Shown: positions 2,804-19,872 of the stretch, piece after piece
How positions within the stretch are numbered: position 1 is the first letter of the stretch
Layout: each line of letters begins with the position of its first letter
Origin: Bacteroidota bacterium
Lineage (GTDB): Bacteria; Bacteroidota; Bacteroidia; CAILMK01; JAAYUY01
DNA length: 40,803 nt
NCBI GenBank assembly: GCA_018698135.1
Contig: JABINZ010000153.1
Coordinates: 1 to 40,803, forward strand
Direction of reading: 5' to 3'
Notes under the pieces: generated by a model
Seen by the model: the letters and a program-made list of their open reading frames with translations, nothing else
Told to the model about the DNA's origin: nothing
Databases searched by the model: none
Translations under genes and position numbers: made by a program

Positions 2804-5800
2804 TTATTTCTTCATGAAATTAATTAATTTGTATTGCTGGTTTGATCCAATTTTAAGTTGATACATTCCACTACTGAATGAACTCACATCTATTTTTTGA
2901 TTATTCAAATTGTTAGTAGGGTAAACTTTGTAAACTAATTTTCCATTCATATCGAAAATTTCAATATTCAATTGATCTTTCAATTGTCCTGTTTCTATTA
3001 CAAAATAATCTGTGACAGGATTCGGATACATGCGTATAGCATCAAGTAGGTTATTTGTTTCATCAAATCCTGTATTTCCTGTAATGGTAATGGACATACT
3101 CTCAATGTTATTTGTTTCGTCAGATTCGTCAATTTGATCGGATGCATCAGCTACAAACAAAATAAACCAATTGCCATTGGCGGTATTGTTTGGAATAATT
3201 AAATTTTCGTTGGATGCGCTTGAGCTATTGACTGTTAAGCTCAACACATTGTCTGATCCCAATTCAATATCAGTTCCATCCAATTGGGTGTTTGAAGAAA
3301 GAAAGTATTTTAAAATGCTGCTTCCTGCATCTCCCTGACCCTGGTTTTTAATGGTGCAATTAGCTGTTAAAACACCTCCAACATTAACCGTTGCTGGTGT
3401 AACGCTTTTTGACTGAATGATCAAATCAGCTTGACCTTTAAAAACAGTAATTTGAGAAGAAGCAATATTATTGTTTTCGTTGTCTTCTGTGATTGCTAAA
3501 TTAGCATCAGCGTAAATGAGAACATACCAGTTACCAGCAGCTGTGTTAACTGGAATTTGGAAAATTTCAGCAACAGTCATGCTGCCATCTTTAGCCAGAC
3601 TAATTACATTATCTGATCCCATTTCCATATCACCTGCATCAAAGCTTGAGTTTGCTGATAAATAGTATTTTACTACAGAAGATGCAGCAACAGAACTTCC
3701 TTGGTTTTTAATTACGCAAGTAACTGTTAGGTTTTCGCCAGCCTGAATTGTTGAAGGCGAAACGGTTTCATCATAGGCTATGAGGTCTGGATCGCCAGCT
3801 ATAACACGTGTGATTTCAATTTCGAAAAGATAGGTTCCTTCAATTCCTGAAAAATAGGGACTGACTTCGAAATTAACTGTACCGGCACCGATCACATTAA
3901 AATCAGATGCTTCGTCATCATCAAAATAGGCAGACCAATTAGCTCCGTATTTATAAGCAAAAACTGCATCGCAGCTGTAAGTATAACCGGTTCCACTGTT
4001 GTAACTATCATGTAAGCGCATGCTAATGGTATAATTATAACCACTGGCTAAATTGAAGTTGTAAAAATCAATATCACTTGCATTGTGAAAGTTTGAGCCA
4101 ACAGTTGTAATAGTGGCTTTATCAGCTACAAAAGTAGGTGTAAATGTATACGGACTGTTTTCTGTATTATTTACCTCATATGGATCTGGATATTGGGCTG
4201 TTGAAATAATTTTTATTGGAATAGGATTTAAATAGGAATCTTCATCAATAAGTGTCCAGTTGCCACCTGAAGGTTTAAAATGAGCAGCTAAAATGTAATC
4301 ACCTGGAGCTGCTTGGATAGAGCTGCTAACAAACCATATACCATTTGTCCAATGACTCATGGTAGGTAAACTTATACTACTTCTTGTTTCAATCGTTTCA
4401 ACGAATTGACCACTTGATACATCAAACAAGGAAACGGTTAATTCTCCATTAAATGTGGAACCGCTAAAATTTGCCATATCAAACCAAACAAATGCTGAAT
4501 CATATTGAACCAATGGTTTTGGGAAAGCATAAATAGAGTCATATAGTCTAATGTCCCAGGCTGAAGTTCCCCCTTGAACAGTTACAGATACAGGGTTTGA
4601 ATATGATCCTTTATCGACTAGAGTCCAACTTCCGCCACTTGGTCTGAATTCAGCTGCAACTAAATAAGTGCCAGGTGATGCAGATATACTGCTGCTCTCA
4701 AAATCATGTCCATATGAATAATAGTATCCATCGGTTAATGATAAATTGTTAAAGCTATCGATCAGTTCAACAAATTGACCTGATGAACTATACAATGCAA
4801 CCCGAATATCTCCGGTAAAATTGGTGCCACAATTATTTAATAATTGAACCCATATTGTTGCTGACTGATATTGAGTTAGTGTAGTGGGCGTTTTTGTGAT
4901 TCCATCATATAATGTTAACATGATGGAAGAAGTTGTACCCGGTTTGATACCAATTATAGCTGCCTGGCTGGTTGAAAAGTCATAGGTCGAAGGATTTAAA
5001 TTTGAAACGTAAAAATAACCATCCTGTGAACCTTGCCATCCCCAATTGAAATGGAAATGGTTATTTGATGTTCCTTGATAGCCATCGCAAACAAATGCAT
5101 GACCACCTGACGAACCATGACCACGGTAGATCATTGGTCTGGAATTATCAATTTCAGTTTTTAATAAACTCTCCCAAGCGCTACTTGTATAATTACTTTT
5201 ATCTTTATATTGAGTGGTAGATGAATAACCAAAATAATTTTTCAATGATGAAGCTGCATCTGAAGTATATGCACCACTTCCAGTTGGTGCATAATTCATT
5301 TCAACACTTACACCACAGTGATTGAGCAAAGTAGCCACAGCACTGTTATTGGAGGAGAGTGAATTTGGCATTCCACTCCAATTGTATGTTGTCATGCCAT
5401 AATTAGCAGCTAATGTTCCATAACTTGAATGGTAATAGGAGCTAGATCCGCTTCCTTTTGTTGGTGATTTGTGGTAATGCATTACCTGACCCATAGCAAC
5501 TGCTACACATCCAACTAAAACCCTATTGTCGTAACTGCTGCTAGCATCAACAGGACAATTTCTGTTGTAATATTGACCTTGTCCCCAATGGGCAGAAACT
5601 AATGGACTTACACTACGATAGTTTCCTCTATATACTGTTTGTTTCTCAAGATTGGCCCATTCATTTTGAATGTTTCTATCAGCTTTTAAGCCATTGCTAA
5701 TAACTTTTAGAATTTGCTTTTCATATATAATCATCATTTCATGAAAAGAGGGAGGCTGATTTTCAACCAAATAGTTTCCTTGAAATGAATAACCTAAAAT

Positions 5801-7717: not shown

Positions 7718-8242
7718 TTACTTCTTAAACTGTGTTTTCAACAAAGCAGTCCATTCTGCAATGAGTTCATTTGTATCCTCTGGATAATTATCATGGTCGA
7801 TAGGGAGTCCTACAAACTGATTTTTAACAAAGGCTCGTGAACTGGTGAAATCATATTTGTCGCCAGGCCAATGCCCGATAATTTTAACTCCTTGTTCTTT
7901 AAGTTTTTCAGACAAGGGTCCCATATCGTCACAAAAATGATCAGGATACAGAACTTGATTTCCTAAACCAAATATAGCCGCTCTTTTACCCTTTAGCTCT
8001 ACCTTTTGAATAAGCATGAAAAAATTGTCCCAAAGGTTTTTGGTACTTGCATCCGACCAATTATCAGCTCCAATTGTAGAAATGCCGAAAATATATTGAT
8101 CATATTCTTCCAGTTTTAGTAACGATACTTTGGAGAGGTCTAAAACATCAATGTCTTTTTTTTCAAAATTATTAGCAATGATATTAGCAACGTCCTCTGT
8201 ATTGCCACCAGTATATCCGAAAAATAATCCAATTTTTTTCAT
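7718..8242 (-). CDS. fldA: Long-chain flavodoxin (FldA type)
   Basis: This protein of about 174 residues, from MKKIGLFF, has the flavodoxin fold. The FMN phosphate loop is FGYTGGNTEDVA, and later segments are IFGISTIGADNW, AAIFGLGNQVLYPDHF and the long-chain hallmark region WPGDKYDFTSSRAF. Flavodoxins carry single electrons and replace ferredoxin when iron is scarce. A start at 8284 would add 14 residues not seen in the family, so I choose the internal Met at 8242. It stands apart from its neighbours. A second, more divergent flavodoxin is at 15197-15700 and a possible reductase partner is at 23361-24017. Confidence 0.92.
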   Translation of the reverse strand: MKKIGLFFGYTGGNTEDVANIIANNFEKKDIDVLDLSKVSLLKLEEYDQYIFGISTIGADNWSDASTKNLWDNFFMLIQKVELKGKRAAIFGLGNQVLYPDHFCDDMGPLSEKLKEQGVKIIGHWPGDKYDFTSSRAFVKNQFVGLPIDHDNYPEDTNELIAEWTALLKTQFKK

Positions 8243-8357
8243 TTGATTAATATTAGTTTTTGTTGTTTGAGCACATTGGCTCATTGTACAAAGTTAATGT
8301 TTTATCGTAACATTAATTATTGAGTTGATGTGTTATCAAGTTGATTAATATCAATAA

Positions 8358-11300
8358 TTATGACACAACAATGTTAATGATTTTATTGGGGACGAAAATA
8401 ATTTTTCGAACTGTTTTTCCTTCTAACCATTTTTTAGATTGGGGGTTATTCAATATTTCCTTTTCTACCTCCTCTCTTGAAATTTGTGTTGGAAAGGATT
8501 GTTTGAATCTCATTTTCCCATTGAAAGAAATGGGGTATTCATGCTCATCTTCCTTCATATAATCTTCATTAAAGTTTGGGAATTGAGTTTTTGTAACACT
8601 TGCTCGATGACCTGCCATAGCCCATAATTCTTCAGCAATATGGGGTGCAAATGGAGAGATTAAAACGATTAATGGCTCCAAAATATTTCTTTTTGTGCAA
8701 GCTAATTTAGTTAAATCATTGACGGCTATCATAAATGAACTGACAGATGTATTAAAGGAAAGTCGTTCAATATCATCACCAACTTTTTTGATAATTTTGT
8801 GTAGTACTTTTAACTCCTGGTCGGTTGATCTTTCTTCTGATAATTCAAATTCATTTTGCTCATTGAAATACAAATTCCAAAATTTCTTCAGGAACTTTGA
8901 AACACCTTCAATGCCATCTGTATTCCAAGGTTTGTGAAGCTCAATAGGGCCGAGGAACATTTCATACATACGAAAAGTATCCGCTCCATATTTGTCGATT
9001 ATTAAATCAGGATTAACAACATTATGCATGGATTTTGACATTTTTTCAATGCTATATCCACAATGATATCTGCCATCTTCCAGAATAAACTCAGCTTGTT
9101 TGAACTCAGGTCTCCAGGATTTAAAAGAGTCTATATTTAGATAGTCATTCTCAACAATGTTTACATCCACATGCAAAGGGGTAGCATACAAGTCTTTGTC
9201 TTTGATGCCGGCAGAAACAAAAATTGGCTTGAGTTCTTTGTGCTCTCGGGTTAAATACGACTCAACATCCTGACCTATAGCCATTTCTTTGATCTTATTA
9301 ATAACATCATCCAGATTTTCTAGAATTCTGATAACTGGTATAAGAAGTAAGTTGTAATCATTTTGATCAAAATATTCTTTATATCTGGATTCCAGCTTTT
9401 CAAGTTTTTTATGCTGTTTAATCTCCAATACAATTTTTGCATCCTGACTGAAAAAATCAAATTCACGATGACCTTCTTTGTATTTACGGTGAAATTTTAT
9501 ACCTGTTTTGAGTTCCTTGATTTGTTCCCAAAGAAGATATTCAGCATATTTTTCAGGGTTAACACGATACACAAAATTTGAACGACCTTGAATCATTCCT
9601 TGATTGACTAACTTTTTGAAGGGCTCTTCTTTGCAACTTAATCCGAGGTCAAAAAGAAATTTATTCCAAAAGCGTGAATAAATTAAATGTCCTGTAGCAT
9701 GTTCAGTCCCACCAATATACAAATCTACATCCTGCCAATATTGTACAGCATTTTGTGAAAAATACTCTTGATCGTTTTGAGGATCCATATACCTTAAATA
9801 GTATGCACTTGAACCTGCAAAACCTGGCATGGTATCCAATTCCAATTGATATCCTTTAGCTGTTTTCCAGTTTTCGGCTCGTGCTAAAGGCGGCTCTCCA
9901 TCCTCTGTTGGTAAGTATTTGTCGACTTCCGGCAATTCCAATGGAAGCTCAGATTCCTCCAGAACTTTGGGTATATCATTCTCATAATATACTGGGAATG
10001 GCTCTCCCCAATAACGTTGACGGCTGAAAATAGCATCTCGCATCCGATAGTTAATCTTGAATTCTCCTATTGCAAGTTCTTCAAGTTTAGTATTCATTAC
10101 ATGCATTGCATCTGCCACCTCAAGCCCATTCAGAAAATCTGAATTAATAAGAGTTCCTGCTTTCGCATCATATGATTCTTGATCAATATTGCCACCACTG
10201 ACAACTTCAATAATGGGTAGATCAAAATGTTTTGCAAAAGCATAATCACGACTATCATGTGCAGGAACAGCCATGATAGCTCCAGTTCCATAACCAAAAA
10301 GGACATAATCTGCAATCCAAATAGGCATCTTTTCATTTGTGAAAGGATGAAAGGCATAGGCACCTGTAAATTGCCCACTTACGTTTTTAGTTTCTGCTAT
10401 TCGATCTCTTTCTGTCCGTTTGCTGGTAATTTCAATGTATTGCTCTATCTTTTCTTTAAACTCAGAAGTGGTTATTTTACTAACTAATGGATGCTCTGGA
10501 GCAAGAACCATATAGGTTGATCCAAACAAAGTATCTGGTCTGGTCGTAAAAACCTCAATCTGAAATTCGCAATCTTTCTGCCTCCCTGGGCTTGTCGAAG
10601 GCGCTGCCGCAATCTGAAATTCTATGCTGGCTCCAGTAGATTTGCCAATCCAATTTCGTTGCATTTCTTTCAAGGAATCGGACCAGTTCACCTGATCGAG
10701 TCCTTGCAAAAGTCTTTCAGAATATGCAGATACCCTAAGTAACCATTGAGTCATTGGTTTTTGAACCACCGGATGCCCTCCACGTGCCGACAAGCCATCT
10801 TTAACTTCATCATTGGCTAATACTGTCCCTAATTCAGGACACCAGTTTACTGTGGTCTCTGCCTGAAATGCCAATCGATAATTCATCAATATGGCTTGTT
10901 GTTCTTTTTCTGATTTGGAATTCCATTCCGCTGCAGTAAAACTTAATTCTTCTGAACAGGCAGCTTGAATATGAGCAGTTCCATTCTGAGAAAACTCTTT
11001 AACCAAAGATTCTATTGGTTCAGCTTTCTGTGATTCATTATTGTAATAATGCTTGAATAGTTGAATAAATGTCCACTGAGTCCATTTATAATATGAAGGA
11101 TCAGATGTTCTGACCTCCCGATCCCAATCGTATGCAAAACCTATTTTGAATAATTGCTCTTTATATCTTTTGATATTTTCATCGGTTGTAACAGCAGGAT
11201 GCTGACCTGTTTGAATAGCATATTGCTCAGCAGGCAAACCAAAAGCATCAAAACCCATTGGGTGAAGAACATTGAATCCTTTCAGAACTTTGTAGCGGCT

Positions 11301-11486
11301 GTAAATATCGGAGGCTATATAACCCAAAGGGTGACCAACATGAAGTCCGGCACCTGAAGGGTAGGGGAACATATCCAAAACATAAAATTTTGGTTTGTTC
11401 TTATCAATCTCAACTTTATAGGTTTTTTGAGTGTGCCAGGTTTCTTGCCAATTCTTTTCTATCTGTTGGAATTTATATTCAGCCAT
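8358..11486 (-). CDS. leuS: Leucyl-tRNA synthetase with two unusual in-frame insertions
   Basis: This 1042-residue class I synthetase charges tRNA-Leu. The HIGH-type signature is HVGH (49-52), the editing domain carries TTRPDTLFG and [11 protein letters not shown], and the KMSKS loop is at 815-819. The rest ([32 protein letters not shown]) follows the Bacteroidetes bacterial type, which is usually about 920-950 residues. The extra length is in two places. Residues about 293-310 come from an inserted palindromic repeat. Residues about 643-753 form a DUF559-like nuclease domain between GRSNFVYRV and the IFVSAGI/HVDVN segment, inside the leucine-specific region. All catalytic signatures and the C-terminal anticodon region are intact, so the enzyme is presumably functional. 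Confidence 0.95.
9228..9560 (-). other. DUF559-like (PD-(D/E)XK endonuclease-like) domain inserted in LeuRS
   Basis: Residues about 643-753 of LeuRS are absent from the usual Bacteroidetes enzyme, where YRI leads almost directly to the HVDVN segment. The insert follows the DUF559 pattern in order: [33 protein letters not shown], a lysine/arginine helix, YNLLLIPV, then [10 protein letters not shown]. This corresponds to the DUF559 series W-x-L, GxKFRRQ, VDFYCxxxxLVIE, RD, GYxVLR, ENxxxVxxxI. The putative nuclease triad is D677, E688 and K690 (D-x10-E-x-K). DUF559 belongs to the Vsr-like restriction-endonuclease fold. The assignment is by motif only. Confidence 0.75.
10556..10622. repeat. REP-like palindromic element with 13-bp direct flanks, inserted in leuS
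   Basis: The 13-mer CAATCTGAAATTC occurs twice (10556-10568 and 10610-10622), flanking 41 bases that hold the core CTCCCTGGGCTTGTCGAAGG at 10582-10601. This core belongs to a dispersed family (TTCGACAAGCYCAG) found in many bacterial genomes. The ends GCCT/AGGC can pair. The added 54 bases encode 18 residues ([14 protein letters not shown] plus a duplicated EFQI), so the reading frame of leuS is kept. No second copy was noticed in the window. Confidence 0.8.
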
Positions 11487-12070: not shown

Positions 12071-13885
12071 TTAATTTTTTGAATAATCTAAACTGGATCC
12101 TGCTTTCCAACTTTTTAATCCAAATTCATATGCACCTGCATCTGGTGCTAATCCTTCAAATTTATCAGTCAAACCCTTAACAATAATTCCATAATCAATT
12201 GCCTCAGAACCAGATTTTAGTGAAAAATCAAACACATGGATATTTGTAAATGCTGGTCTTGAAATGGATAGATTGTTTTGTTTGAGCGTTCCCTCAGACA
12301 TGGGATGGGAGCTTAAATTATTAAATACATGCTGGTTTGTATTGTTTGAGAACTGTATTCCACCTGTTGTTTTTTGTATGTAGCGACTTAACCATATTGT
12401 ATTGTGATAAATGCTAAGATTGCTTGCTGGCTTGTTTGTGCGGATTCCGGTTTCAACATGCCAGATAACATTGTGATGAATTCTGTAATTTGAGCAATAA
12501 TTATCAATATACACTCCTTCACAAGCTTTTTGCGTTTGCGCATCATGTATCCAATTGTAGGCTATTTCAGAGCCCTCACCATCTGTTTTAAAAACATATG
12601 TTCCACCAAGATCTTGTGTAAGCAAGCCAAATAAGGAAATGTCATTATACATGATTTGAACTTTTTTAGCATCGTTATGTACAATTCCGCTTCTTGCGGT
12701 ATTCCTGATTGTATTGTGCAATATTTTATGGTTTTCACCGACCAGCGCAATAGGTGCAGCATTGGTTGCCATCCAATTGCAATCTTCTATAATACAATTT
12801 TGCACTTGGTTATTATGTCCTCCTAAACTTATACCATCCCCCCAACTATGCCCAATATAACTATCCGAAATTTTATTGTTTCTTCCGCTGATTTGAATGC
12901 CGGCTCCATCCCAATGTTCAATTGAATAATCACTGTTTTGCATTCCCCGATCAAAACTCCGACTGAAAGTGAAAAATGGAACAGGATAGAGGATACTACA
13001 ACTTTCAATCGAGCAATTTGTAGCCATATTTAATGAGATATTTGCATTCTCAAAACGCAAATTGATGAGCTGAATATGAGATTGATGATCAGCTACCAAT
13101 CCAAATTCTCGTATCCGAGCTTCTATGTTAAGTTCGTCAATATTTTTAGTAGTGTAATAATATAAAGTGTCGTGTTGCCAGTGCCATTCATTTTCATGGT
13201 CAAGAGCATTTATGTGTTTAATGATATAGGTCTGCCCATCACCTAAATAATTTTTTTGCCCTTTTGCATTCCACTGGTGACTCCGATTTTTACAAAATAG
13301 CTGATTGCTATCTGAAGTAGAAACCTGACCGATTTGTGTGACCCATTTTTCTCCTGTTAGGATGATGCAATAGGCCCTTATCCAATGGTTTCTGGGAAAT
13401 GTGGCATCTTCAAAAAATACACTTCCGTTTGAATCGGCTGTTACATGAAGCCAATCGTCCAGTATAAATCTATTTTCCTGATTTTTGTTTGGGAAACGAG
13501 CTTCAAATGCAATTTCATCATTAACCATTAATTGTAAAACTTCATTAGGAATGTAAGTTTTGTAAATATTATTTTGATGGAGTTCCCAATCAGATGCCAT
13601 TACACAACCACTAATTATTACGTTTTCATTCTGATAGGAAGTGAAAATAATTGGGGATTCTGACGTGCCATTTTTTCTGATGGTAACTACCTCTCTATAA
13701 ATACCTTTTCTGATATAACAAGTGTCACCAGCTTTTATAACATCAGCAGCCTTTTGAATACTTTTAAAAGGGGAGGAGATTGTCCCTTGATTATTATCAT
13801 TACCTGAAATTGAGACATAATACTGTGTTTTTCCTGTAAAAAAAGAACAAGTGAAAATAATAAAAAGGAATATTAATTTGTTCAT
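12071..13885 (-). CDS. Exported right-handed parallel beta-helix protein (pectate-lyase-like superfamily)
   Basis: This 604-residue protein has a signal peptide (about 1-20). The opening YYVSISGNDNNQGT...PFKSIQKAADVIKAGDTCYIRKG is typical of DUF1565-type beta-helix proteins. The middle and C-terminal parts are a series of short repeats with N-rich turns (for example NLRFENANISL, IQISGRNNKISDSYIGHSWGDGISLGG, LHNTIRNTARSGI, IAYNWIHDA, IHHNVIWHVETGI), which form the coils of the solenoid. Such proteins are polysaccharide lyases, epimerases or glycoside hydrolases; no polysaccharide-utilisation genes (SusC/SusD) are near, so the substrate is unknown. It starts 33 bases downstream of signal peptidase I and may be co-transcribed with it. 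Confidence 0.85.
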   Translation of the reverse strand: MNKLIFLFIIFTCSFFTGKTQYYVSISGNDNNQGTISSPFKSIQKAADVIKAGDTCYIRKGIYREVVTIRKNGTSESPIIFTSYQNENVIISGCVMASDWELHQNNIYKTYIPNEVLQLMVNDEIAFEARFPNKNQENRFILDDWLHVTADSNGSVFFEDATFPRNHWIRAYCIILTGEKWVTQIGQVSTSDSNQLFCKNRSHQWNAKGQKNYLGDGQTYIIKHINALDHENEWHWQHDTLYYYTTKNIDELNIEARIREFGLVADHQSHIQLINLRFENANISLNMATNCSIESCSILYPVPFFTFSRSFDRGMQNSDYSIEHWDGAGIQISGRNNKISDSYIGHSWGDGISLGGHNNQVQNCIIEDCNWMATNAAPIALVGENHKILHNTIRNTARSGIVHNDAKKVQIMYNDISLFGLLTQDLGGTYVFKTDGEGSEIAYNWIHDAQTQKACEGVYIDNYCSNYRIHHNVIWHVETGIRTNKPASNLSIYHNTIWLSRYIQKTTGGIQFSNNTNQHVFNNLSSHPMSEGTLKQNNLSISRPAFTNIHVFDFSLKSGSEAIDYGIIVKGLTDKFEGLAPDAGAYEFGLKSWKAGSSLDYSKN

Positions 13886-13918
13886 TGAGCCATTTAAGTC
13901 TGCTTGATTTAGAATAAT

Positions 13919-15070
13919 CTAATTTATGATTTTGCCGATTCTGTTTTTTTCCTTTGCCCAGTATATATACAATGCTTTTCCAACAATATCTTCTTCAGGG
14001 ACGAAGCCATACATTCTTGAATCATATGAATTAGGTCGATTATCTCCAATAGTCCAGTAGTAGTTTTTCTGAACCTCATAAGAGGAAGTTAAAACACCAT
14101 TAATCCAAATACTATTGCTGTCATAGTCAAGAGTATTGCCTTCAAAATCAGTTATTAGATTGCAATAAAACTTTATGTTATTGTTGTCTAATTTTAAGAT
14201 ATCTCCACTTTTAGGTATTTGAACAGGGCCATAGAAATCCATATTCCAATTTGTATTTTGTGGCTGAATGATGTTTTCGTCTCTGGCATTTCTCATTTCC
14301 AGAATATGATCAATAGAAATAATTTCTTTTTTTTGGCTTAAATAATCTACTTGTTCAATAGTTAGAAAAATAATGTAATCAATTTCATTATCTGACATGA
14401 TTTCTGTTATCCCATGTTTTTCTAATAATGTTGGATTAAATGGAGTAGATGTTTTTATCAGATATTTTTGCTTCAACTGATTTTCATTATGAAATGATAT
14501 GTTATTAACATAAACGTGTCCATTGATAATTTCAACCTCATCACCCGGGAGTCCCAGGCATCTTTTGATGAAAATATCTTGATTGTATGTAGGGCTGATA
14601 AAAGCGATTATGTCTCCCAGTTCGATGGATTCGAATTCTTTGTCTACTGTGAAAACATCATGGATCAGTAAGCTTGGTTCCATGGATGATGTTGGAATTA
14701 TATAGGATTGGACAGGCAGTTTGCTTTTTACCTCTGTCCCATAAAAAAGAATAGAAATGGCGATTTGAATTGATATTATTGCAACATAAATATACCATTT
14801 ATCCCATTTTTTTATGTCTACTTCTTTTGTCTTTCTACAAACGACAATTGCATCAATAAATATGTACAATAAACCACCAATAGAAAGAATGAGTGAAATG
14901 TATAAATTTGGAAATGTTTTTAAAAAGTTTGTGAATATCAGAATATTCACATAAATATTCATTGTAATAAAAACAAGAATGGCCTTTTTAATTTGGTGGT
15001 TATAAAGCTGACCTAATCCTAAACTTAGTATAGAAAGCAAAAAAGCTATCCATGGATTTTTCCTTTTCAT
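13919..15070 (-). CDS. lepB: Signal peptidase I with an N-terminal multi-span membrane extension
   Basis: This 383-residue S26 peptidase removes signal peptides on the outer side of the inner membrane. The catalytic Ser129 is in PTSSMEPSLL and the general base Lys169 is in DIFIKRCLGLPGDEV; the later box IGDNRPNSYDSRMYGFVPEEDIVGKA is also present. Before the catalytic domain there are about 110 residues with four or five hydrophobic segments (about 7-22, 29-47, 56-78 and 93-110). These begin with a short GQLYNHQIKKA motif like that of TM2/DUF5683-type modules. Ordinary LepB has one or two anchoring helices, so the extension is unusual. The region between Lys169 and the GDNR box is also long, as in many Bacteroidetes enzymes. 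Confidence 0.93.
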   Translation of the reverse strand: MKRKNPWIAFLLSILSLGLGQLYNHQIKKAILVFITMNIYVNILIFTNFLKTFPNLYISLILSIGGLLYIFIDAIVVCRKTKEVDIKKWDKWYIYVAIISIQIAISILFYGTEVKSKLPVQSYIIPTSSMEPSLLIHDVFTVDKEFESIELGDIIAFISPTYNQDIFIKRCLGLPGDEVEIINGHVYVNNISFHNENQLKQKYLIKTSTPFNPTLLEKHGITEIMSDNEIDYIIFLTIEQVDYLSQKKEIISIDHILEMRNARDENIIQPQNTNWNMDFYGPVQIPKSGDILKLDNNNIKFYCNLITDFEGNTLDYDSNSIWINGVLTSSYEVQKNYYWTIGDNRPNSYDSRMYGFVPEEDIVGKALYIYWAKEKNRIGKIIN

Positions 15071-15196: not shown

Positions 15197-15700
15197 TTAC
15201 ATCAATTCATTTTGTATTTGAGCAACCCAGTCCTTTATTCTTTTTGCTGAAAGCTTTGCTTGATTTTCCTGATCTAGCAATAAACCCACAAATTGATCTC
15301 CTCTTATTGCTTTAGAGCTTTCAAATTCATAGCCATCAGTTGAAGTGAATCCAATCAGTTTTCCTCCACCTTTTTCGAGAATTTCGGCCATGATTCCTAA
15401 TGCATCACCAAAGTTTTCAGGATAGCCTTTTTGGTCACCTAAACCATAAAGTGCAAAGGTTTTTCCTTTTAAATCCATGTCTTCCAGTTCAGGAACAAAT
15501 TCATCCCAATAGTTTGCCAATTCGCCATCAAACCAAGTTGGTAGACTAAGAATAAGTAAATCGTATGCTAATAATAAATCACCTGTGATTTCTTCTGCAT
15601 TGATGGCTTCTATCTTTTCCTTACCAAATACCTCGCTAATTTTTTCTGCTGCCTTTTTTGATTTGGTGGTATTGAAACTGTATATGATGGCTGTTTTCAT
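15197..15700 (-). CDS. Second flavodoxin with altered phosphate loop
   Basis: This 167-residue protein aligns along the long-chain flavodoxin family: ILSLPTWFDGELANYWDEF, ALYGLGDQKGYPENFGDALG, TSTDGYEFESSKAI and GDQFVGLLLDQENQ. The phosphate loop reads SFNTTKSKKAAE instead of the usual SDTGNTRKVA pattern, so the glycine is replaced by threonine. A Trp in the 60s loop (PTWFDGEL) could stack on FMN. It probably still binds FMN, but this should be tested. It is not in an operon with the other flavodoxin. A dispersed inverted repeat lies just upstream. Confidence 0.88.
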   Translation of the reverse strand: MKTAIIYSFNTTKSKKAAEKISEVFGKEKIEAINAEEITGDLLLAYDLLILSLPTWFDGELANYWDEFVPELEDMDLKGKTFALYGLGDQKGYPENFGDALGIMAEILEKGGGKLIGFTSTDGYEFESSKAIRGDQFVGLLLDQENQAKLSAKRIKDWVAQIQNELM

Positions 15701-19263: not shown

Positions 19264-19284
19264 AATGCGTATTTATAATTAGTA

Positions 19285-19292
19285 CAAATTTA
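19285..19292 (-). promoter_or_regulatory. Candidate -7 box (TAAATTTG) for the E2-E1 operon
   Basis: On the minus strand TAAATTTG fits TAnnTTTG 22 bases upstream of the E2 start at 19263. The divergent plus-strand box for the SOD gene lies within 35 bases, so the two promoters would share one intergenic region. Confidence 0.35.
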
Positions 19293-19317
19293 TAAATAAT
19301 ATAAAAAAGAAAGCTTG

Positions 19318-19325
19318 TAAATTTG
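19318..19325 (+). promoter_or_regulatory. Candidate -7 box (TAAATTTG) for the nickel SOD gene
   Basis: TAAATTTG fits the Bacteroidetes TAnnTTTG box and lies 56 bases before the start codon at 19381. No clear -33 TTTG is seen. No Nur- or Fur-like operator could be recognised by eye. Confidence 0.35.
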
Positions 19326-19380
19326 TTTAATGTTTGACATTGATTGTTTTACATGCATTAATCAAATAAAATAATTTAAT

Positions 19381-19872
19381 ATGAAAAAATATTTTTTATT
19401 AGTACTTGCCACAATGTCTTTTATATTTATCAGCCATAAAACATCTTCTCATTGTGAAGTTCCCTGTGGAATTTATGATGATGAATTACGCGTAGAACTG
19501 ATTTATGAACACATCAGTACGATTGAAAAAGCAATCAAACAGATTGAGGAATTAGAAAAAGAAATTCCTGTAAACTATAATCAAATGATTAGATGGGTTA
19601 ATACGAAAGAAGAACATGCTACTAAAATACAGGATATTGTTAACCAGTATTTTATGACTCAAAGGGTAAAGGCCGTAGATGGTTCAGATCAGTTTGCATA
19701 TGACAAATATATTGCTCAACTCACCAGTTTGCATCAACTCCTGGTGTATGCGATGAAAAGCAAACAAAGTCTTGATCTTAAAAACGTAGCAAAGCTAATG
19801 GAATTAACTGCTGTTTTTGAACATTCTTATTTTGGTGAGCACAGGCATGATAAGGAAGGTGAGCATAAATAG
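19381..19872 (+). CDS. sodN: Nickel superoxide dismutase with Sec-type signal peptide
   Basis: This 163-residue precursor is decided by HCEVPCGIY at residues 24-32. It is the NiSOD nickel hook HCxxPCGxY, in which His1, Cys2 and Cys6 of the mature chain bind nickel and Tyr9 gates the site. The residues before His24 form a hydrophobic signal (MKKYFLLVL ... HKTSS) with T-S-S at -3 to -1. Signal peptidase cleavage there would expose His1 exactly as the nickel site needs. The remainder is the expected helical bundle. The C-terminus is His-rich (HSYFGEHRHDKEGEHK), perhaps helping nickel binding. No sodX maturation peptidase is adjacent. The enzyme is predicted to be outside the cytoplasm, dismutating superoxide without iron or manganese. 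Confidence 0.92.
   Translation: MKKYFLLVLATMSFIFISHKTSSHCEVPCGIYDDELRVELIYEHISTIEKAIKQIEELEKEIPVNYNQMIRWVNTKEEHATKIQDIVNQYFMTQRVKAVDGSDQFAYDKYIAQLTSLHQLLVYAMKSKQSLDLKNVAKLMELTAVFEHSYFGEHRHDKEGEHK

Follow-up and report, generated by a model that had tools for sequence, protein, structure and literature searches.

A gene in the window, by which we mean the whole 40,803-nucleotide stretch of DNA that was analyzed, very probably encodes an exported nickel superoxide dismutase (NiSOD), periplasmic or located in the outer envelope, that is matured by signal peptidase I and loaded with nickel outside the cytoplasm. Direct support came from its leader, a conserved junction between leader and nickel hook, the absence of SodX, the split of the family into two clades, the predicted fold, and the inventory of superoxide dismutases (SODs) in the genome; from these we infer the cleavage itself, the location, the nickel content, and the SOD activity.

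The sodN-type gene and its leader

A preliminary description of this DNA had placed a NiSOD ORF here, and its exact coordinates were reproduced (Table 1). The 163-aa product scored 97.7 bits against the Pfam profile PF09055 (Sod_Ni; E 1e-27, cut-off 25). Against TIGR02753, the NCBIfam sodN equivalog that we take to represent the SodX class of NiSOD, the same product reached 33.5 bits, below the cut-off of 90. The gene is the only NiSOD gene of its genome and stands alone, with a 2-oxoacid dehydrogenase E2 gene diverging from it on one side and a gene for a MiaB-like radical SAM protein converging on it from the other; no oxidative-stress genes were among its neighbors in the window. Both the synteny and the region upstream of sodN are conserved in the sister species (G277), which argues against an assembly artifact. 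Read by eye, TAAATTTG in the upstream region may be a promoter.

Table 1 Features of the sodN locus, with window coordinates
Feature	Position	Strand	Basis
sodN-type gene, NiSOD precursor, 163 aa, ATG start	19381..19872	+	PF09055 match; ORF; single copy in genome
Predicted Sec-type signal peptide MKKYFLLVLATMSFIFISHKTSS, residues 1-23, ending in KTSS	19381..19449	+	Sequence; leader hydrophobicity and -3/-1 statistics of 91 relatives
Nickel hook HCEVPCGIY, predicted mature residues 1-9, ligands His1, Cys2, and Cys6	19450..19476	+	Invariance in both classes
Predicted four-helix bundle of the mature enzyme	19477..19833	+	AlphaFold model; top PDB matches are NiSOD
His-rich C-terminal tail GEHRHDKEGEHK	19834..19869	+	Sequence; mostly disordered in the model
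Upstream intergenic region, common to sodN and the divergent E2 gene; AT-rich; contains TAAATTTG	19264..19380	+	Alignment with the sister locus, 94%

The leader MKKYFLLVLATMSFIFISHKTSS comprises a KK n-region, a hydrophobic core, and Thr and Ser at positions -3 and -1, and its maximum 10-residue Kyte-Doolittle mean was 2.5. As the preliminary description had it, the nickel hook follows this Sec-type signal directly: HCEVPCGIY starts at His24, and the pattern H-C-x-x-P-C-G-x-Y is present in full. The mature N-terminal peptide is predicted to be HCEVPCGIYDDELR. The signal-peptide call combines hydrophobicity, the residues at -3 and -1, and conservation, and the corresponding junction in the sister genome reads KTTS/HCEVPCG. 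A lipoprotein reading was discarded, the leader having no lipobox because His stands before the first Cys. Export by Tat was likewise rejected: no twin-arginine motif is present in the window protein, an early RR occurs in only three of 91 relatives, and Sec is favored because the leader contains no RR.

Some other features of the window were recorded. The leucyl-tRNA synthetase gene (8358-11486, minus strand) carries a DUF559 (endonuclease-like) insert at residues 647-734, which is also present in the enzyme of the sister genome with a score just under the Pfam cut-off. Two flavodoxin genes lie about 7 kb apart (7718-8284 and 15197-15700, minus strand). The window also has, at 12071-15070 (minus strand), a beta-helix protein gene and a gene for a second S26 signal peptidase, neither of which stands at the syntenic position of the sister genome.

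Two classes of NiSOD separated by leader type and SodX linkage

Relatives of the window protein were collected by similarity from GTDB genomes. Among the best 80 matches, which cover about 20 phyla, all 80 have a hydrophobic leader abutting HC[EQ][IVM]PCG. The same arrangement was found throughout the exported clade (91/91), with SodX alongside none of its members; the residue at -1 is Ala or Ser in 89 leaders, Thr in one, and Pro in one, and His comes next. In the other clade, a short non-hydrophobic leader precedes HCD.PC and SodX adjoins the gene in all 30 genomic members (one cut by a contig end). A single branch of the maximum-likelihood tree, with support of 100/100, parts the 91 exported sequences from 31 SodX-class sequences, the latter being the 30 genomic ones and a Streptomyces SodN sequence that is not a database record and on which no conclusion rests. 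The window sequence pairs with that of the sister genome, and its nearest neighbors are Chlorobiota and Bacteroidota members. The relatives with the best names agree with the preliminary assignment to Bacteroidota. Because of long branches and a short alignment, the tree gives no resolution of the inner forks; its root position is not fixed.

Since the similarity set had been chosen by likeness to the window protein, PF09055 was also run in an unseeded manner against 379 genomes from a single other phylum. By score, the 37 NiSOD matches over the cut-off split in two, as none fell between 114 and 144 bits. The 28 matches of the upper group (144-165 bits) have HCD and leaders of 17-21 aa that lack a hydrophobic core (for one, L121, no start was placed); SodX adjoins 27 of them, and the remaining one is located at a contig end. 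All nine low scorers (96-114 bits) have Sec leaders, and a SodX neighbor was found for none.

The hydrophobic leader, the small residue before the hook, and the position on the tree place the window protein in the exported clade, and the TIGR02753 score below the cut-off, the Sec leader, and the lack of SodX in the genome set it outside the SodX class. Leader type and SodX linkage sorted the two clades with no exception in the set, a comparison that supports the original proposal of Sec export and signal peptidase I in place of SodX. Nor is such an enzyme confined to a single Bacteroidota genome, as the exported form is a widespread class. One NiSOD of each class was found in each of three genomes (G611, G644, and G660). 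Two different exported NiSODs, both with His-rich tails, were seen in G434 (Persephonella; L151 and L152).

Metal site, fold, and probable dismutase function

Alignment of the 91 exported and 31 SodX-class sequences showed that His1, Cys2, Pro5, Cys6, and Tyr9 are invariant in both classes. Position 3 is Asp in 31/31 SodX-class sequences and either Glu (56) or Gln (35) in the 91 exported ones, position 11 is Pro in the SodX class and Asp in the exported class, and N44, Q45, R48, W49, K53, Y67, F68, and Q71 are further invariants of the exported class. Because the Asp3 of the studied NiSODs is Glu or Gln in the exported clade, SOD activity is not simply transferable to it.

The AlphaFold model, computed for the mature chain together with 76 relatives, had a pLDDT of 91.4 and featured helices at residues 11-36, 43-72, 81-106, and 110-131; confidence was lower in the hook block (mean pLDDT 68 over residues 1-10). 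Each of the best eight PDB matches of the model was a NiSOD chain (TMt 0.71-0.83, identity 15-17%, probability 1.00). Their Foldseek E-values, about 0.1, are not significant alone, and unrelated bundles reached a TM of only about 0.3. As modeled, the window protein belongs to the NiSOD four-helix bundle.

The last ten residues of the tail GEHRHDKEGEHK had a mean pLDDT of 46, with the last seven below 50. When His residues after the last conserved aromatic pair were counted, the SodX class had none (31/31) and the exported class had a mean of 1.2 (rank test, relatedness ignored, p = 2e-6). Two to six were present in all 11 Bacteroidota/Chlorobiota members counted and four or five in four Aquificota, and 45 of 80 exported members outside Bacteroidota/Chlorobiota had none. 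Being a lineage feature, the tail is not needed for function in general. We can only guess that it may help capture nickel; as to the preliminary idea that it holds nickel, the tail is indeed present, but roughly half of the exported clade lacks one, which leaves that role doubtful.

Two neighboring Fe/Mn-SOD genes in the same genome encode cytoplasmic-looking products without a hydrophobic leader, which probably serve the cytoplasm. Neither a CuZn-SOD (SodC) nor a superoxide reductase was found in this genome, which leaves the exported NiSOD as the sole candidate for an extracytoplasmic SOD among the families tested. In a planctomycete locus (L077, 3868-10177), the exported NiSOD gene lies among genes for a Fur-family regulator, rubrerythrin, thiol peroxidase, a flavodiiron protein, desulfoferrodoxin, ferritin, and catalase, a setting that supports a superoxide role for the exported clade. 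Parts of this cluster recur in L044, L046, L047, L055, L056, and L060. An apparent conserved neighbor of NiSOD at 21 loci was rejected as an antisense shadow ORF, since it overlaps the gene on the opposite strand.

The replacement of Asp3 and the other class-specific residue differences would also suit a protein that binds or sequesters nickel instead of dismuting superoxide, its hook and His tail capturing periplasmic metal and handing it over. His-rich tails occur in several lineages, and exported nickel binders with an N-terminal His are known from passages of PMC12537917. We nevertheless consider such a function unlikely, given that none of the 91 exported sequences departs from Tyr9 or from any of the hook ligands, that the predicted fold is NiSOD-like, that the planctomycete gene is embedded in an oxidative-stress cluster, and that roughly half of the clade lacks a His tail.

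SodX and other S26 peptidases

SodX is an S26-type peptidase. A search with the TIGR02754 profile (cut-off 63 bits) found none over the cut-off in the 97%-complete genome of the window, adjacent to sodN or elsewhere, in agreement with the preliminary remark that no SodX adjoins the gene. A sodX homologue elsewhere, which the preliminary description had named as a refutation of its proposal, was thus looked for and not found. Sub-threshold matches of 20-22 bits lay within two ordinary-sized S26 signal peptidases, and at a lax threshold such weak S26 matches appeared in 13 of 14 control genomes too. Nickel transport genes had been raised together with sodX, and a genome search found no transporter of the NicO family; this absence is neutral for periplasmic nickel loading. 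Across 395 genomes of the class, no SodX exceeded the cut-off, and NiSOD is rare there (two over the cut-off, both in the genus of the window). Three of 396 genomes of the phylum carry NiSOD, all three with a hydrophobic stretch before the hook and one (L155) with an unusually long N-terminus.

Among 50 other genomes that carry the exported form, many of them MAGs and possibly incomplete, SodX over the cut-off was absent from 48, and in 47 there was neither such a SodX nor a second NiSOD linked to SodX. G430 has its SodX gene beside a second NiSOD, whose short leader is of the cytoplasmic type, and in G416 a SodX below the cut-off likewise adjoins a second, short-leader NiSOD. The other SodX over the cut-off, in G397 (L105 / L150), is an S26 peptidase ORF (5135-5695, plus strand) that scored 76 bits and in which the S26 part is preceded by a hydrophobic stretch; the single NiSOD of this genome is of the exported form, and no NiSOD hook was found around the S26 ORF on the 11-kb stretch.

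The two S26 peptidase genes in the window's genome, one of them (13919-15070, minus strand) about 4.3 kb from sodN, could be taken to indicate that the precursor is trimmed in the cytoplasm by one of these enzymes or by a SodX-like protease, with the mature enzyme staying there. The nearby gene was rejected as a dedicated protease, since the sister genome has kept its NiSOD but lacks this S26 gene at the syntenic position. With both S26 peptidases at 20-22 bits against a SodX cut-off of 63, and a strongly hydrophobic leader unlike those of the SodX class, we regard cytoplasmic trimming as highly improbable. It is also very hard to credit that the leader stays uncleaved as an inner-membrane anchor, with a hook that is non-functional or binds metal without a free amine: the TSS c-region is weaker than the AXA usual for signal peptidase, but in 91/91 sequences from about 20 phyla position -1 holds a small residue (in one case Pro) and position +1 holds His, a junction so fixed that it is difficult to explain without cleavage there.

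Proposed maturation of the exported enzyme

For the exported, signal peptidase I-matured NiSOD that we favor, the unfolded precursor would cross the inner membrane through Sec, and the general signal peptidase I would cut after TSS, in one step removing the leader and freeing the α-amine and imidazole of His1 beside Cys2. Because the N-terminus would bind nickel only after this cut, nickel would be loaded outside the cytoplasm, and the loaded enzyme would remove superoxide in the periplasm, a compartment for which this genome has no CuZn-SOD. Signal peptidase I would take the role that SodX has in the cytoplasmic class. The leaders of both classes have a small residue before His in common; read most simply, different S26 enzymes would make the same cut on opposite sides of the membrane. 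Counted against this scheme is that Cys2 and Cys6 would have to stay reduced in the periplasm despite possible thiol oxidation there.

For the family as a whole, it seems likely that NiSOD follows two ancient, non-overlapping routes: a cytoplasmic one with SodX trimming, and an exported one in which signal peptidase I makes the nickel site, to be filled with the metal in the periplasm. This second branch would then provide an extracytoplasmic SOD in many phyla, and the absence of sodX would not equate to an inactive NiSOD.

Discussion

To our knowledge, NiSOD biochemistry has so far dealt with the SodX-dependent cytoplasmic class. The SodX-matured enzymes of Streptomyces, cyanobacteria, and others (PF09055 / TIGR02753 with TIGR02754) share with the window protein the Pfam family, the predicted fold, His1, Cys2, Cys6, and Tyr9, and a small residue before His1; identity to a SodX-class protein was about 26%. 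The window protein differs from them in having a hydrophobic Sec leader in place of a non-hydrophobic one of 17-21 aa and in having no SodX, and its class has Glu/Gln3 for Asp3 and Asp11 for Pro11. Periplasmic CuZn-SOD (SodC) is likewise an exported SOD and probably occupies the same physiological place, with a fold and metal unrelated to those of NiSOD.

Exported NiSOD is visible in the literature, in passing. NiSOD in Bacteroidetes was already counted in 2009 (PMC2667541), and the exported-clade member of Ilyobacter polytropus bears the RefSeq name 'superoxide dismutase [Ni]'. The signal peptide of the Roseiconus lacunae NiSOD (WP_230780104.1, annotated Sod_Ni) ends right before the hook His, as in the window protein, and this planctomycete signal peptide served as a search seed for other metalloproteins, with the recovery of 'many Ni-superoxide dismutases' (PMC12537917, Nat Commun 2025). 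The leader/His junction has therefore already been exploited in that work, whose relevant passages leave the maturation of NiSOD, its activity, and SodX aside. Signal peptidase also makes the metal-chelating N-terminal His of the exported metalloproteins discussed there (LPMO, CopC, DUF4198, and anglerases); their folds differ, and the NiSOD hook adds two Cys ligands and makes a redox site. No account of exported NiSOD as a SodX-free class, or of a split into two routes, was found in the accessible papers, and a prior description is possible.

Cyanobacteria with sodN and without sodX have been suggested to be possibly unable to use NiSOD (PMC8346466). Genome surveys outside cyanobacteria should check the leader type before inferring an unusable NiSOD from a missing sodX. 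The exported form is carried by cultured organisms (Marinifilum breve, Labilibaculum euxinus, Desulforhopalus sp., and Ilyobacter polytropus), which makes the class directly testable. If the exported clade is active, its maturation would need no dedicated protease, nickel would be inserted outside the cytoplasm, and NiSOD may act in places where one would usually expect CuZn-SOD.
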